Below are positions 1 to 33,314 of a DNA stretch of 33,545 nucleotides, piece after piece (position 1 is the stretch's first letter; the number at the start of each line of letters is the position of its first letter). The position numbers and the translations under genes are program-made. Below the pieces are notes generated by a model, which worked only from the letters and a program-made list of their open reading frames with translations, did no database searches and had not been told where the DNA came from. This DNA comes from an uncultured Alphaproteobacteria bacterium (GTDB taxonomy: Bacteria > Pseudomonadota > Alphaproteobacteria > CAAHEQ01 > UBA3637), in assembly GCA_944390205.1 (NCBI GenBank), contig CALXPF010000006.1, forward strand, positions 1 through 33,545, written 5' to 3'.

Positions 1-626
1 ATTTTATTCAAATTAAAGTGACACATCTTGCGCTTTGTTGGATCCCAGGCAATTAAATAGTGCTTATTTCCATACAGGAAGCCATAAGGGTACAACTCGC
101 GCCAGTCCTTGTTATGTTCGGAATCATATTTTATTTTAATGCGGTTGCACGCAATAATTGCGTAGCGGAGCTGTTTTAAGTGTTCTGTGTTGATGATAAT
201 CTTTGGTCCGGGCCGAAAAGCGTAACCTTCAGCTTCCAATAGTGCTTCGGCATCCGGTTCTATTCTGTTGATGGCATCCTTACCGATGAGGGCTTTTATC
301 TTGTGCAGGACGTTATCGATATATCGAGAATCAATCATCTTTTTGGAAGCTAAAAGTTTGGATGCGTTTTGTAGCGCGTGGATCTCTTCCATAGAAAAGC
401 TGACCATATCGCGGCCTGTACCTTTAGGTAAATACCAACGTTTTGTATTATAACGACCGTTAATTTCTTTTAATTGAGGGTATTTATCGGCGATTGAATC
501 TTTCATGCGAACTGCTGTCCGGAGAGAGACATCATACTTTTCCATGATGTTTTTAAGAGAAACGCCGTCATCTGTGTCCTGCATCCACAAAATCAGGTCA
601 TTGAGCGTTTGCGTTTTTTTATACAT
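1..626 (-). CDS. HTH-WYL transcriptional regulator, C-terminus cut by window edge
   Basis: Read on the minus strand, an uninterrupted frame starts at ATG 626 and runs off the left edge (at least 208 codons visible). The N-terminus (MYKKTQTLNDLILWMQ) leads into a winged-helix-like segment with DVSLRTAVRMKDSI as the likely recognition helix. Around residues 180-205 the stretch LYPYGFLYGNKHYLIAWD is typical of a WYL domain, a ligand-sensing module. GGAG lies 8 bases before the ATG, and a near-consensus promoter lies upstream. In this family, HTH-WYL proteins (CapW/BrxR, PafC, YafY types) often repress nearby defence or stress genes. Whether it controls the neighbouring VWA/HTH genes or something beyond the edge cannot be seen. 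The family call is fairly secure; the role is inference. Confidence 0.85.
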   Translation of the reverse strand, partial: MYKKTQTLNDLILWMQDTDDGVSLKNIMEKYDVSLRTAVRMKDSIADKYPQLKEINGRYNTKRWYLPKGTGRDMVSFSMEEIHALQNASKLLASKKMIDSRYIDNVLHKIKALIGKDAINRIEPDAEALLEAEGYAFRPGPKIIINTEHLKQLRYAIIACNRIKIKYDSEHNKDWRELYPYGFLYGNKHYLIAWDPTKRKMCHFNLNK

Positions 627-657
627 AGTCCGGCTCCATTCTTACAATAGCGCGCAC

Positions 658-687
658 ATTATACTCGATTCTTTTTTCAAATGTCAA
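658..687 (-). promoter_or_regulatory. Promoter of the WYL regulator gene
   Basis: On the minus strand TTGACA (687-682) and TATAAT (663-658) are separated by 18 bp, close to the sigma70 consensus. The predicted start lies about 25-30 bases upstream of the ATG at 626. A TGACA-N5-TGGCA sequence at 697-711 lies just upstream of the -35 box and could be an operator. Confidence 0.75.
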
Positions 688-730
688 TATGGGTCATGAC
701 AAAAATTGGCAGTTATTCGATGCCACAACC

Positions 731-759
731 TTGCAAAATAATTTTATTTTATGTATCCT
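731..759 (+). promoter_or_regulatory. Promoter of the 777 HTH-like gene
   Basis: TTGCAA (731-736), 17 bp, TATCCT (754-759). The predicted start lies only about 10 bases before the ATG at 777, so the leader would be very short and no strong Shine-Dalgarno sequence is present. Confidence 0.55.
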
Positions 760-776
760 AATGAAAATGGATAAAA

Positions 777-1280
777 ATGGTAGAAACAAAAATGAACATC
801 AAAGAATTAAAAGCAGACATTCAAAAATACCTTGATGAAAACCTTGTCGTTGAACGGGCTTGTTACGATTTAGACGCTGAACCGATGGTCTTTTATCAGG
901 AAGCTCTTCCAATGGAAGCAGATTTGCTGGAAGATATGGAGCCGACTTTCTCGCAGACATTATTTAAGATGATAAAAGAAAAAGGAATTTCTGAAACTGA
1001 CTGCTATAAAAATGCTAACCTTGACCGCCGTTTATTTTCAAAAATTCGGAGCAATGATGATTATCAGCCGCGAAAAAATACCGTTTTTGCGCTGTGCATC
1101 GGTCTTAAACTTAATCTTGATGAGGCTGAAGAACTGCTGGATAAGGCCGGTTATTCAATTTCGCACAGCATAAAGTTTGATACAATTATGGAATATCTGA
1201 TAAAACAAAAGGTTTATGACATCATGACAGTTAATGAAGTGCTTTATTCCTTTGATTGTCCGATTTTAGGTATTAAATAG
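777..1280 (+). CDS. HTH-like (Xre/cI-type) protein of the VWA-linked family
   Basis: 167 residues. The N-terminal part (to about residue 55) is acidic. Residues 57-130 (FSQTLFKMIKEKGISETD, then NLDRRLFSKIRSN and LKLNLDEAEELLDKAGY) look like a lambda-repressor-type helical domain. I recognise the same pattern from Firmicutes proteins that sit beside VWA or macro-domain genes; this is from memory, not a search. It converges on the NTF2-like/VWA pair, and its terminator overlaps the end of the NTF2-like gene. The start at 777 was chosen over the internal ATG at 792 because it fits the short leader. It could be a DNA-binding regulator or a protein-interaction partner of the VWA protein; no function is established here. 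Confidence 0.8.
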   Translation: MVETKMNIKELKADIQKYLDENLVVERACYDLDAEPMVFYQEALPMEADLLEDMEPTFSQTLFKMIKEKGISETDCYKNANLDRRLFSKIRSNDDYQPRKNTVFALCIGLKLNLDEAEELLDKAGYSISHSIKFDTIMEYLIKQKVYDIMTVNEVLYSFDCPILGIK

Positions 1281-1304
1281 GCCCTCGTTAAAGGGCCTTT
1301 TTTT
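1279..1304 (+). terminator. Intrinsic terminator after the HTH-like gene
   Basis: AGGCCCT (1279-1285) pairs with AGGGCCT (1292-1298) around a 6-base loop, followed by a run of T to 1304. The stop codon of the convergent NTF2-like gene (1288-1290) lies in the loop, so the two genes share this 3' end. Confidence 0.85.
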
Positions 1305-1701
1305 CAAATTCTTCAAATGCAGCTTTATCTTTATAAGCAAGTGAGTATAAACCAGCCGCCATTAAATCCATTCGTTTTAATTTACCGGATTTATCTGTTT
1401 CAGCAATAAACGCGCCGTAGCCGCCGTCAGGAGTTTTGGGAGAAAACATCAAGACCGGTTGACCATCGCCTTGCTTATACATCATCACAAAATTAAACTT
1501 TACGTTGGCATTTTTCATGGCCTCAAGCTTTCTTGTTATATAGTAAAGATATGCATCACGCGATTTTATCTCATCGCAAACCCACATAGAGGAATAGTGA
1601 AAGTCCTCTGGTAATAAATCCGCAATTGAATCTGCAGAAAAGGTTGTATACATTTCAGCAACCTTATTTAAAAAGTCTTCTTGAATTTCGTAGTTAGTCA
1701 T
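1288..1701 (-). CDS. NTF2/SnoaL-like small protein
   Basis: 137 residues, predicted soluble, with no signal peptide. The pattern of an N-terminal helix (YEIQEDFLNKVAEMYTTF), a short acidic turn (LLPEDFHYSSMWV) and alternating strands (KFNFVMMY, PVLMFSP, GAFIAETD) suggests the cone-shaped NTF2-like fold used by SnoaL-type enzymes and binding proteins. It starts 8 bases after the stop of the VWA gene and is probably co-transcribed with it. Its 3' end converges on the HTH-like gene. A fold-level guess is all the sequence supports; no catalytic residues are obvious. Confidence 0.7.
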   Translation of the reverse strand: MTNYEIQEDFLNKVAEMYTTFSADSIADLLPEDFHYSSMWVCDEIKSRDAYLYYITRKLEAMKNANVKFNFVMMYKQGDGQPVLMFSPKTPDGGYGAFIAETDKSGKLKRMDLMAAGLYSLAYKDKAAFEEFEKKAL

Positions 1702-1709
1702 TGTTCCTC

Positions 1710-2432
1710 CTATTCATGTCTTAAAAAACTTGGCAGATTGTCGTCTTCGGTTGTTTGAGAAATGGCCTTTTTTCTTCTCTTTATGTCCTTATCAATTTTC
1801 TCTTTCCAGTTTTCCGGTAACGGTTCTTCAGGTGCGGCGCAACAACAGCATACAGCATCTGACACAGTCTGATAAAATACAGTCACGCCTTCTTCATCAT
1901 TTACGACATTGGCCGCGTATTTTCTTCCTATGCCGATTTTGCTTGCCTCTGCAATGGCATCGATATTAGCACCGAGGAACAAAAACTCCCAACCGAATTT
2001 TTCACGTTGTTTTTCGATCATCTTCTTTATTTTCAGGAATGTGTATTCGCGGCTTGAATTCTCGTAACCATCTGTCGTTATGACAAACAGAGTTTTGGCC
2101 GGTACGTCATCTTTGCGAGCATATTTATGAATGTTACTTATATGTTTAATTGTGCTTCCCACCGCATCGAGCAATGATGTACAGCCGCGAGCATAGTATT
2201 CCTTATTCGTTAATGCTGGAACATCATTAATGGCGACCCGGTCATGGAGGATTTCAATTTTATCATCAAATAACACCGTTGTTACAAGTGCATTCGGGCT
2301 CTCTTTTTTCTGTTTGTTTATCATTGAATTAAATCCGCCGATAGTGTCGGAGACGACGTTTTCCATTGAGCCACTACGATCCAAGACAAAAACGACTTCC
2401 ACTTTGTTTGGTTTATTTTGAACTTTTTTCAT
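1710..2432 (-). CDS. VWA-domain protein, TerY-like
   Basis: 240 residues. A complete von Willebrand A metal-binding (MIDAS) set is visible: DRSGS at residues 18-22, Thr85 in RGCTSLLDA, and Asp121 in ITTDGYENSS. The rest of the VWA fold follows to about residue 190, then a Lys-rich tail ending LPSFLRHE. Four consecutive cysteines (195-198) form an odd insert after the VWA domain. The start at 2432 follows AAAGGAA; a longer frame to 2510 has no better signal. Cytosolic VWA proteins of this kind act as metal-dependent scaffolds in ter-like and phage-defence-like loci. The family as I know it is common in Firmicutes, so horizontal transfer is plausible. Confidence 0.88.
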   Translation of the reverse strand: MKKVQNKPNKVEVVFVLDRSGSMENVVSDTIGGFNSMINKQKKESPNALVTTVLFDDKIEILHDRVAINDVPALTNKEYYARGCTSLLDAVGSTIKHISNIHKYARKDDVPAKTLFVITTDGYENSSREYTFLKIKKMIEKQREKFGWEFLFLGANIDAIAEASKIGIGRKYAANVVNDEEGVTVFYQTVSDAVCCCCAAPEEPLPENWKEKIDKDIKRRKKAISQTTEDDNLPSFLRHE

Positions 2433-2517
2433 GCTTTTTCCTTTCAGTTGCAAGTTACAAGGAAAGTCTAACAAGAAAATTTTATAAGTTGGTCGCAGTA
2501 AAAGCGACATTTTGTTA

Positions 2518-2532
2518 TGACAAGAAATGTCA
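2518..2532. promoter_or_regulatory. Inverted repeat TGACA-N5-TGTCA, possible operator
   Basis: TGACA (2518-2522), AGAAA, TGTCA (2528-2532) is a perfect 5-bp inverted repeat upstream of the VWA gene. On the minus strand it overlaps TTGTCA, a possible -35 box with a poor -10 (TACTGC) 17 bp away. A similar TGACA-N5-TGGCA lies at 697-711 ahead of the WYL gene. The rest of 2433-2700 shows nothing else I can name. Confidence 0.35.
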
Positions 2533-2685
2533 TCAATTTACTTCGTTATGCCATTTTTTGACTTCTGTTTGCGGTGGTGCGGTTGTAATCCTTTTTTATT
2601 TGTATAATTCTAATTCCGGTGGGGATGTCTGCCAGTAAAATGTAGATGTCCAGCGCATGAGTTGTCGAAAAAATTCACAAATCCC

Positions 2686-2714
2686 TTGCGTTTGTTGTTA
2701 ACATCGGGTATAGT
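2686..2714 (+). promoter_or_regulatory. Promoter of the structured RNA
   Basis: TTGCGT (2686-2691), 17 bp, TATAGT (2709-2714). The predicted start at about 2718-2721 falls at the 5' base of the terminal stem of the RNA. This match between promoter and fold supports a discrete transcript. Confidence 0.7.
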
Positions 2715-2716
2715 AT

Positions 2717-2954
2717 AGCCCGTCACGATGGCCCATCGTGGCTAGGATATGCTAAATCTGATCAGTATGGGCAGTCGTTTGTGCATCCTTTTTGATTCTT
2801 ATTTTGGGTGCAGATCGAATGTTTTGGGGCATCTACTCCTTAGGGGTGGATGCCAGTGAATAAGGCTACGCCCCAATAGCTGGGCTACTTATCATACTGA
2901 TCGTAGTTAGCACATCCACCCGCCTGGAATATGGCGGGTTAAAACTACGGGCTG
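2717..2954 (+). ncRNA. Large multi-stem structured RNA ahead of the SLOG-like gene
   Basis: About 235 bases fold into nested helices I could pair by eye. The closing stem is 2717-2723 with 2947-2953 (AGCCCGT/ACGGGCT). A hairpin forms at 2724-2740. A long-range stem pairs 2760-2769 with 2893-2902 (10 perfect pairs), extended by 2751-2755 with 2907-2911. Inside it are a hairpin 2782-2788/2806-2812, a stem 2824-2830/2870-2876 enclosing a long hairpin 2829-2839/2843-2853 with a UUA loop, and finally a hairpin 2918-2924/2933-2939. It has its own promoter and no T-run, so it probably reads on into the SLOG-like gene whose ATG is 12 bases past the fold. It resembles large ornate RNAs or long riboregulators; I cannot assign it to a known class. 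Confidence 0.75.
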
Positions 2955-2966
2955 AATGGATAAGTA

Positions 2967-3419
2967 ATGGCTGTATGCACATTTTTTGGTCATAGATACG
3001 CACCGCTTACGGAAGCAGAGAAAACAAAATTAACTGCTTCAATTACTGATCTTATCAAAAATCACGACGTTACAGAATTTTGGCTCGGAGCCAAAGGCGA
3101 ATTTGATTTGATCTGTAGCAGTACACTTAGCAAACTTAAAAAAGAATTCCCGAACATAAAGCTCTGCCTCGTTCTGTCATATATTCCTACAAATAAAGAG
3201 GATTACGAGTGGAAAGAGCGATATTACGATCATATCTTCTTACCGGACGGGGTCGAGGATGGACCTCAACGTTTTGCGATCACAAGGCGTAACCTGTGGA
3301 TGGCTCTCAACTGTGATTACATGATATGTTACGTTAAAAACGATTATGGTGGGGCCTATGCCGCTATGAAAGTCGCGTTGGCCAACAAGAAAGAGGTGAT
3401 AAACATATGTCAAACATAG
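2967..3419 (+). CDS. SLOG-like Rossmann-type protein
   Basis: 150 residues. MAVCTFFGHRYAP at the start and FWLGAKGEFDLICSSTLSKL at about 39-58 match the SLOG/DUF1273-type nucleotide-binding fold. Near the C-terminus, LNCDYMICYVKNDYGGAY gives the GG-containing loop typical of the superfamily. SLOG proteins bind nucleotide-derived ligands and appear in stress, competence and defence systems. It lies 12 bases beyond the structured RNA and overlaps the start of the endonuclease I gene by 13 bases, so RNA, SLOG and nuclease look like one transcription unit. The start is preceded by a weak GGATAA. Confidence 0.8.
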   Translation: MAVCTFFGHRYAPLTEAEKTKLTASITDLIKNHDVTEFWLGAKGEFDLICSSTLSKLKKEFPNIKLCLVLSYIPTNKEDYEWKERYYDHIFLPDGVEDGPQRFAITRRNLWMALNCDYMICYVKNDYGGAYAAMKVALANKKEVINICQT

Positions 3420-4160
3420 TGTGTAAATATGCTCTTATATGTTCGATGATGTTCATCACAACCTCAGCGTTAGCCGGAAATGAGCGCATTATGTCCTTTA
3501 ATAAGGCCAAAAATGACCTGAAAAACCTGGTATATTATGACCATCATCAGACATTTTACTGTCATGTTCCTTTTGATGTCTATAATAGAACCATATTACC
3601 GTCAGATTTTTACATAGCGAAACATAAAAAGCGCGCTGGCCGCATGGAATGGGAACATATAGTTCCGGCCGAGAACTTTGGCCGAGCCTTCCGGGGAGTG
3701 GCGTGAGGGAGACCCGGCATGTGTTAACAGAAAAGGCCAACCATTCAAAGGCCGCCGCTGTGCAAACAAAACAAACAGCCAATTTCGTATGATGCAGGCT
3801 GATATGTATAATCTTTACCCGTCCGTTGGCGCGGTTAATGCTATCCGGTCAAACTATAATTTTGCCGAGTTACCGGAAGATGTTGATTTTATCATTGATG
3901 CCTGTAACTTTAAGGTACTGGGCCACAAGGTTGAGCCGGCGGACATGAGCAAAGGCGAAATTGCCAGGACATACCTTTATTTTGATAGCGAATACCAGAC
4001 ATATAACATGAGTAAGCAATCGCGGCGGCTGATGGATGCCTGGAATGTTTTGTATCCGGTCACGCCATGGGAATGCACCCGGGCCAAACGTATCGAAGAA
4101 ATCCAAGGGAATCCGAACCCATTCGTAAAAGAACCTTGCATTGAAAAAGGTTTGTATTAA
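3407..4160 (+). pseudogene. Endonuclease I (EndA/Vvn type), frameshifted
   Basis: Two frames make one secreted non-specific nuclease. Frame 1 (3407-3706) begins with a signal peptide (ending SALA-GN) and holds the catalytic segment RMEWEHIVPAENFG. Frame 2 (open from about 3678 to 4160) continues with EWREGDPACV, QADMYNLYPSVGAVNAIRSNYNF and a Cys-containing C-terminus. The break is at the G4 run 3693-3696: with three Gs the text would read FGRAFREWREGDP, the expected family sequence. The general-base His lies before the break and the metal-binding Asn (RSN) after it, so neither half should work alone. A good AGAGGTG ribosome site precedes ATG 3407. This is either a genuine lesion or a homopolymer sequencing error. 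Confidence 0.85.
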
Positions 4161-4314
4161 TAATAAAATCAAGAACTTAAACTGACGTTTCTCAACCTAA
4201 TGTCAACCTCTCTTGAGTAGATTAGAAACACAAGAGCAATAAAATTGTATGGAAAACATTGTAAATCAATATCTTAAAATCAAAGCGGCACTTTTTGGTT
4301 GGCAGATATGGCAG

Positions 4315-4348
4315 GGTATACTTTTTGGGTATAGGTATACTTTTTGGG
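4315..4348 (+). repeat. Direct repeat GGTATACTTTTTGGG x2
   Basis: Two identical 15-base copies lie at 4315-4329 and 4334-4348, separated by 4 bases. They sit between the broken endonuclease gene and tRNA-Pro, in a 315-base gene-free stretch that otherwise holds only the tRNA terminator and a small CTCTTG/CAAGAG inverted repeat near 4210-4240. Such repeats next to a tRNA 3' end resemble integrase arm sites, but no integrase gene is visible. Confidence 0.6.
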
Positions 4349-4431
4349 GAGTAACAATTAAAATGACAGCCGCGTAATAGGAAATTTTGAAAAGGGAAAT
4401 AGTGGCTAGAATTGGGCTTTAAGCGGGTATA

Positions 4432-4458
4432 AAAAAAGCGGACACTTTTCAGTATCCG
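4432..4458 (-). terminator. Intrinsic terminator of tRNA-Pro
   Basis: On the minus strand CGGATACT (4458-4451), a GAAA loop and AGTGTCCG (4446-4439) form 8 pairs followed by C and seven Ts. Confidence 0.85.
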
Positions 4459-4475
4459 TTTTTATTTTTTTAGTT

Positions 4476-4552
4476 TGGTCGGAATGACGGGATTTGAACC
4501 CATGGCCCCTACGTCCCGAACGTAGTGCTCTACCAGGCTGAGCTACATTCCG
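4476..4552 (-). tRNA. tRNA-Pro (anticodon CGG), CCA encoded
   Basis: A 77-base cloverleaf on the minus strand. The acceptor stem CGGAATG (5' end 4552) pairs with CATTCCG, then discriminator A and a genomically encoded CCA at 4478-4476. The anticodon stem CTACG/CGTAG encloses TTCGGGA, anticodon CGG, reading CCG. The T loop is GGTTCAAATCC. An intrinsic terminator follows closely. Its 3' end faces the accessory block at 1-4475. Confidence 0.95.
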
Positions 4553-32876: not shown

Positions 32877-33314
32877 ATGACAGTTAAACAATTTTTTTTA
32901 AAACTAAAGACCGAACAAAAGAAAGAGCCACCTGAATCAGGCCGTTCTATGGTTGAGATGTTGGGGGTGCTGGCCATTATCGGTGTGTTATCAATCGGTG
33001 GGATTGCCGGCTACACCATGGCAATGAACCGCTATCGGGCTAATGAGATTATCGATACTGCATCAAAAGTATCCGTCATTGCCATGTCTAAACAAGATTG
33101 TGATGAGTATGGAATCTGTGCTTATATGGATGACGTGACAATGAGCAACAATGTTGCCGGTGTAACGATGATGGAAGGTTATCACAATGGAAGTGTAATG
33201 GTTGGAAATCCTCGGAATCCTGGTGTTTACAACGCCATTAAATCTATTGCAGGAAACAAGTTTACTGGTTGGGGAGAGAGAGCCTCAATTCTCTTAAACT
33301 TTGAAGCGAATTAG
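32877..33314 (+). CDS. Type IV prepilin-like / pseudopilin protein
   Basis: 145 residues. The leader ends PESG; cleavage after Gly22 gives RSMVE with Glu at +5, followed by a hydrophobic helix (MLGVLAIIGVLSIGGIAGYTMAM). This is the class III signal processed by a PilD-type peptidase. The mature globular part is small, with two Cys (DCDEYGIC) that could form a disulfide. AGGGAGAGAAT precedes the ATG. No pilus-machinery genes are in the window, so it is either an orphan pilin or an edge gene of a locus to the right. I recall the GRSMVEMLGVLAIIGV start as common in gut Alphaproteobacteria. Confidence 0.85.
   Translation: MTVKQFFLKLKTEQKKEPPESGRSMVEMLGVLAIIGVLSIGGIAGYTMAMNRYRANEIIDTASKVSVIAMSKQDCDEYGICAYMDDVTMSNNVAGVTMMEGYHNGSVMVGNPRNPGVYNAIKSIAGNKFTGWGERASILLNFEAN

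Follow-up and report, generated by a model that had tools for sequence, protein, structure and literature searches.

A family of structured leader RNAs in gut Alphaproteobacteria, probably related to sRNA-Xcc1 and C4 antisense RNA

A 33,545-nucleotide stretch of DNA from an uncultured Alphaproteobacteria bacterium (hereafter, the window) carries, at 2717-2954 and immediately upstream of a gene encoding a SLOG-like protein, a region with the appearance of a large multi-stem RNA. This raises the question of what kind of RNA it is, and whether it controls the gene behind it or forms part of an RNA-protein system with the SLOG product, both of which had been suggested in a preliminary description. 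By computation, its structure and covariation, the family to which it belongs, the position of the copies before open reading frames (ORFs) and, at the level of the family, complementarity to ribosome-binding sites have been established.

Fold, promoter and competing helices

The RNA preceding the SLOG-like gene is a real structured RNA, as judged by its fold compared with shuffled sequences, a conserved promoter and a covarying long-range stem. The minimum free energy of 2717-2954 is -106.6 kcal/mol versus -72.5 +/- 4.6 kcal/mol for shuffles (z = -7.37), and 0 of 200 shuffles folded as well. An alignment of relatives has the -35/-10 pair, the 5' hairpin, the small hairpin, the long-range stem, the core and the 3' hairpin all conserved; these elements, with the downstream gene, are located as follows.

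2686-2714, plus strand: promoter, -35 box TTGCGT (2686-2691) and -10 box TATAGT (2709-2714); TTGC and TATAAT kept in relatives
2724-2740, plus strand: 5' hairpin with loop GCCC, hairpin and loop both kept in SLOG-type copies
2745-2759, plus strand: small hairpin, its loop TGCTAA (2750-2755) being the a1 site, complementary to a' at 2907-2912; examples covary
2760-2769, plus strand: b1 strand of the long-range 10-bp stem, covarying with 2893-2902
2826-2839, plus strand: strand A, alternative partner of strand B (hairpin A:B); own versus swapped pairs P = 1.4e-13, relatedness not removed
2844-2852, plus strand: strand B, 5' strand of core helix B:C; two-sided changes in 8 of 9 pairs; predicted RNase P cut just 5' (GG)
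2853-2883, plus strand: inner hairpin P5 (CCAG 2853-2856/CTGG 2880-2883) with a GAAUAA internal loop; its tip, P6, is weakly supported
2885-2906, plus strand: hairpin P7 (CTAC/GTAG), its loop being antisense segment b'; two-sided changes in 4 of 4 pairs
2907-2912, plus strand: antisense segment a' (TTAGCA), running into strand C
2913-2921, plus strand: strand C, 3' strand of the core helix, covarying; followed by GCC (tRNA-like RCC tail)
2918-2939, plus strand: 3' hairpin C:D; C versus D, own against swapped, P = 4.7e-16; terminator-like in most relatives, with a weak U-tract here
2967-3419, plus strand: gene for the SLOG-like protein, 150 aa; Pfam YpsA SLOG match at E 7e-4, below the curated cut-off

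The promoter had been proposed earlier and is borne out: it was not listed by a simple sigma-70 scan (8/12 matches), whereas TTGC and TATAAT recur at identical spacing across the aligned relatives, and a TATAAT-like box matching at least 5/6 positions was found upstream of 78% of 165 copies versus 48% in a control window. The 3' boundary at 2954, 12 nt before the SLOG ATG at 2967, is likewise correct, and the proposed 10-bp stem (2760-2769/2893-2902), formed between the P7 loop and a strand lying upstream, is present and strongly covarying, with scores of 20.2 for own and 12.35 for swapped pairs (n = 107). Swapped-pair tests such as this one were performed over mixed clades, where relatedness can inflate the result, and a within-clade version was run for a' only. 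The additional hairpins are also real, but the conserved structure departs partly from the minimum free energy fold, as 2844-2852 pairs with 2913-2921. The suggested closing stem (2717-2723/2947-2953) exists in the sequence but is lost in relatives such as L071, and therefore it was left out of the structure.

In the collected homologues, the long-range stem and the core helices keep pairing through substitutions. Across 108 aligned cores, pairing reaches 97.7% in helix B:C, 99.5% in P5, 97.1% in P7 and 62% in P6, and two-sided changes occur in 16 of the 17 pairs of B:C, P5 (4/4) and P7. Every covariation measure exceeded all 500 shuffles and collapsed when the partners were slid; as the alignment had been fitted to the structure, the slide control is the more informative of the two. 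The core has a GG start in 100 and an RCC/RCT (RC[CT]) tail in 103 of these 108 sequences.

Two other folds stand in competition with the core pairing 2844-2852/2913-2921, a local hairpin and the terminator-like hairpin at the 3' end: strand B is complementary to A too, and C to D, so that three states compete. The GCCC loop of the 5' hairpin may, in addition, pair with GGGC at 2769-2772 or 2827-2830. In four relatives (L076, L080, L082 and L083), the ribosome-binding site before the SLOG start, GGTGGAT or GGGTGGAT(G), repeats the strand B sequence and is complementary to C.

Spread of the family and the genes behind it

Of 96 related genomes searched by blastn, 10 contained relatives of the RNA, with three copies in one genome. 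A covariance model built on the RNA core (R1) and used for the family census found it in 39 of 43 genomes of the bacterial family, at 1-31 copies per genome; the genome of the window has four. Of 385 genomes sampled across the class, 20 carry it, and seven families are represented in all. Blastn searches of phage and plasmid records produced no match, and scans of IMG/VR for SLOG and for DNA patterns found nothing. The RNA in the window belongs to a large family of leader RNAs in gut Alphaproteobacteria that had not been catalogued before; its members resemble phage C4 immunity RNAs, in that each seems to bear short antisense segments able to silence the gene next to it.

For the neighborhood analysis, 170 loci were fetched. 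A same-strand ORF starts at most 120 nt from the core end in 155 of them, and 87% of these starts are 12-36 nt away. Among the first 100 loci, 20 are followed by SLOG genes and 18 by members of a mainly pilin-like cluster; other downstream genes encode lipoproteins, secreted proteins, endonuclease I, a glycosyltransferase, a DNA methylase, HTH proteins and NERD-like proteins. Under a simple N-terminal rule, a signal, lipobox or pilin start was recognized in 79 of 133 downstream ORFs versus 49 of 167 control ORFs. A structural or guide-like role in an RNA-protein system with the SLOG protein, as suggested in the preliminary description, is hardly credible: SLOG is among the commonest single targets, but about 88% of RNA copies precede other genes, clostridial SLOG relatives (36-41%) have a divergent HTH-like gene region and lack the RNA, and no defence-family match was found for the SLOG protein. 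Because most copies are located before other genes and the clostridial relatives lack the RNA, we do not regard it as a SLOG partner.

Several observations concern the mobility and surroundings of the locus. In the window (1-4552), genes for a WYL regulator and a vWA protein, the RNA-SLOG unit and nuclease genes adjoin a tRNA gene (4479-4552, minus strand), resembling an integrated island. The endonuclease I gene (3407-4160, plus strand) is split by a frameshift near 3690-3700 into two ORFs, 3407-3706 and 3678-4160; in the relative L085, an intact endonuclease I gene directly follows the RNA. A pilin-like gene of a type often found behind the RNA (SGRSMVEMLGVLAIIGVLSIGG) is present at 32877-33314 (plus strand), with no detectable RNA copy at that place. 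In another family of the class (L010, G089:C5, about 1480-1605), the promoter and first 61 nt of the RNA, 98% identical, are fused to the end of the endonuclease gene, and the same WYL regulator gene adjoins this junction too; from sequence comparison, the RNA core and SLOG would have been deleted here, and the junction would point to movement of the island between families. Three tandem units of the RNA with a gene for a 59-aa lipoprotein form a cassette-like repeat in L013/L073 (G021:C22). Some low-scoring copies that are almost identical (L170, L179, L187, L192 and L195, in genomes G019 and G040) have a U-rich terminator and are followed by no ORF; they may represent a mobile element repeated within a single genus. 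Integron attC sites were considered and dropped, the copies being dispersed and each having its own promoter.

Kinship with sRNA-Xcc1 and C4 antisense RNA

The Rfam search with the window RNA gave nothing at gathering score and nothing at E<=10, so that kinship with raiA, OLE, ROOL or GOLLD, named for comparison in the preliminary description, is not supported; no riboswitch class of Rfam matched the window RNA or 12 relatives. A T-box reading of GGGUGG was dropped, as strand B is base-paired throughout and there was no T-box match. A c-di-GMP riboswitch is also unsupported, since GGDEF genes do not track RNA copy number: one genome (G028) has 5 RNA copies and no GGDEF match, and three others (G030, G032 and G038) lack the RNA and each have a single GGDEF gene.

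The sRNA-Xcc1 model (RF02221) aligns with the core over its full length, 1-87, and the same helices covary, amounting to the same fold (outer helix, inner hairpin, P7 and conserved loop). Matches at E<=0.01 were obtained in 33 of 40 family genomes, and the gathering score (53 bits) was reached in none of the 40, the best match being 48.8 bits. Sister copies, three of them in the window's genome, match with E down to 2e-5 there and 7e-8 in the family, and 53 of the 53 RF02221 matches transcribed lie inside R1 matches. Judged from these alignments, the core is a remote relative of sRNA-Xcc1. The sister copy L125 matches sRNA-Xcc1 and, weakly, both C4 and c4-a1b1, the latter exactly upstream as in C4 loci; the C4 (RF01695) gathering score of 45 bits was not attained, with 26 bits in L125 only. 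Since they fall short of the Rfam thresholds of RF02221 and RF01695, the RNAs described here constitute a clade that is new and divergent but of a familiar type.

The sRNA-Xcc1 of Xanthomonas is a free RNA of 88 nt whose ends have been mapped (PMC2996969), and it is found upstream of symE in integron cassettes (PMC12444791); a title cited in the latter paper describes it as trans-acting. For Xylella, seven copies are reported, five in a tandem cluster, and sRNA-Xcc1 and C4 are named as separate annotations (PMC12189769). The RNA studied here shares with sRNA-Xcc1 the core topology, the GAAUAA loop, a CCGU..ACGG hairpin followed by UUUU, an upstream decoy hairpin and an ORF just downstream with antisense complementarity to its ribosome-binding site. 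Unlike sRNA-Xcc1, it scores below gathering, has a longer 5' domain and a 3' terminator-like hairpin overlapping strand C, and precedes, in up to 31 copies, genes for pilins, lipoproteins and SLOG proteins rather than phage antirepressors or symE.

RNase P cleaves the C4 RNAs of phages P1 and P7 at a GGW start; the ribosome-binding site is masked by loop b', and the sequence bound by a' lies upstream of it (PMC5320573). The order of promoter, a1/b1, core with a'/b' and target at the next gene's ribosome-binding site is the same here as in C4/c4-a1b1 (RF01695, RF03163): both a'::a1 and b'::b1 are supported by own versus swapped pairs, with the weak c4-a1b1 match in place, and the GG start and tRNA-like tail are compatible with RNase P processing. 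In contrast to C4, covariance-model similarity is weak and confined to one sister copy, the RNA is located outside a recognized prophage immunity region and its targets are not antirepressors. Many C4-like RNAs in one genome are also known as the Group 1 sRNAs of Acinetobacter baumannii (PMC5320573), which, however, belong to another lineage and are portrayed as sRNAs that have adapted to new targets, whereas nearly all copies here are leaders of a neighboring gene.

Antisense sites and the proposed mechanism

Complementarity between a' and the ribosome-binding site was tested at 77 non-SLOG loci, where own pairs scored 16.5 and swapped pairs 13.5 (P = 1e-8); it persists within clades (P = 9e-4 and 0.0026), with flat controls in the ORF and upstream. 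Duplex energies with the ribosome-binding site agree (own -9.75, swapped -8.39, P = 1e-5, n = 90), and a' also matches the upstream a1 site in SLOG-type copies (P = 2e-4, n = 13) and in others (P = 6.5e-12). For the 13 SLOG loci taken together, own pairings with the ribosome-binding site were not significantly better than swapped pairings, in score or in duplex energy, partly because the ribosome-binding sites of this subset are alike. For P7/b' against the ribosome-binding site, the test across the alphaproteobacterial family was not significant (P = 0.23), and b' pairing as a general rule of the clade was dropped. Genuine sRNA-Xcc1 loci (n = 28) have the same arrangement with two sites: the P7 region does complement the next gene's ribosome-binding site (own 18.7, swapped 14.5, P = 5e-6), and a' complements both the ribosome-binding region, at a position 20-34 nt ahead of the start (P = 2e-4), and the upstream sequence (P = 4e-5). 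In the alphaproteobacterial clade, a' takes over the ribosome-binding site, which P7 complements in genuine sRNA-Xcc1.

In the window, two 8-bp sites were found, which are common to close relatives, without covariation.

2943-2950, plus strand: candidate target site a2, the upstream one of the two, AACTACGG, matched to 2901-2908 by a direct search for complementarity
2959-2966, plus strand: candidate target site b2, GATAAGTA, abutting the ATG; complements 2886-2893 without mismatch, at the 99th percentile of swapped pairs

Together with the core, a2 and b2 form one antiparallel duplex of -16.6 kcal/mol. We consider it likely that the window RNA is a C4-type (sRNA-Xcc1-like) antisense leader that represses the downstream SLOG gene, its core probably being trimmed by RNase P; control of the following gene, one of the roles suggested earlier, is supported as the most likely one, and the RNA matches the C4/sRNA-Xcc1 antisense-leader plan. 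The absence of a match of the window RNA in Rfam at E<=10 and the lack of a good U-tract in the 3' hairpin count against this assignment, as do the RF02221 scores below gathering, the results for the SLOG subset and for P7, and the missing covariation of the two window sites. Transcription from 2686-2714 would produce a leader with decoys a1 (2750-2755) and b1 (2760-2769), the C4-like core (2844-2921) and the 3' hairpin. RNase P would probably free the core just before 2844, as suggested by the GG start and tRNA-like RCC tail. The b' side (2886-2893) would then pair with 2959-2966, and the a' side (2901-2908) with 2943-2950, of the read-through mRNA, covering the ribosome-binding site and switching the SLOG gene off, while the A:B, B:C and C:D alternatives and the a1/b1 decoys may set the share that is terminated, matured or held inactive. 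Processing, repression and the decoy effect are what we infer.

The competing helices could also belong to a riboswitch-like attenuator, in which a ligand or protein bound to the core (GAAUAA internal loop) would choose between A:B with terminator C:D (off) and B:C (on). The three helices all retain complementarity and are mutually exclusive, a terminator-like hairpin precedes the ORF in most copies and surface or envelope features are common among the targets. We nevertheless regard this as unlikely: a' and b' vary along with the decoys and ribosome-binding sites, which a ligand pocket would not need, the homologous sRNA-Xcc1 is a free RNA with mapped ends, and there is the similarity to C4 and c4-a1b1. 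A mainly trans-acting sRNA, whose copies would regulate a gene network through common a' motifs and not their own neighbors, appears less plausible still. Several copies of one genome do have a common a' (UUUUCUAAC) and a common ribosome-binding motif (GUUAGAAAA), and sRNA-Xcc1 has been described in such terms; however, own pairs exceed swapped pairs even within a clade, and the copies are overwhelmingly placed directly before an ORF.

Genuine sRNA-Xcc1 loci precede genes for Bro-N, KilA-N, P22 antirepressor, Rha and SymE, among others. Since they have C4-type antisense sites and precede phage antirepressors, sRNA-Xcc1, usually seen as a free virulence-linked sRNA, is now linked with C4 antisense RNA. 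The alphaproteobacterial clade is missed by Rfam at its thresholds, yet may rank among the commoner regulatory RNAs of these gut bacteria. More speculatively, in host-associated Alphaproteobacteria with small genomes, a phage-type antisense immunity RNA might have turned into a means of control across the whole genome: up to 31 leaders per genome, with shared a' motifs, would combine antisense repression, transcription attenuation and RNase P maturation, and their cross-talk would set a regulon comprising surface proteins and pilins as well as nuclease and SLOG genes. The findings also suggest that a device of phage immunity came to serve the host as a general switch of its surface genes.
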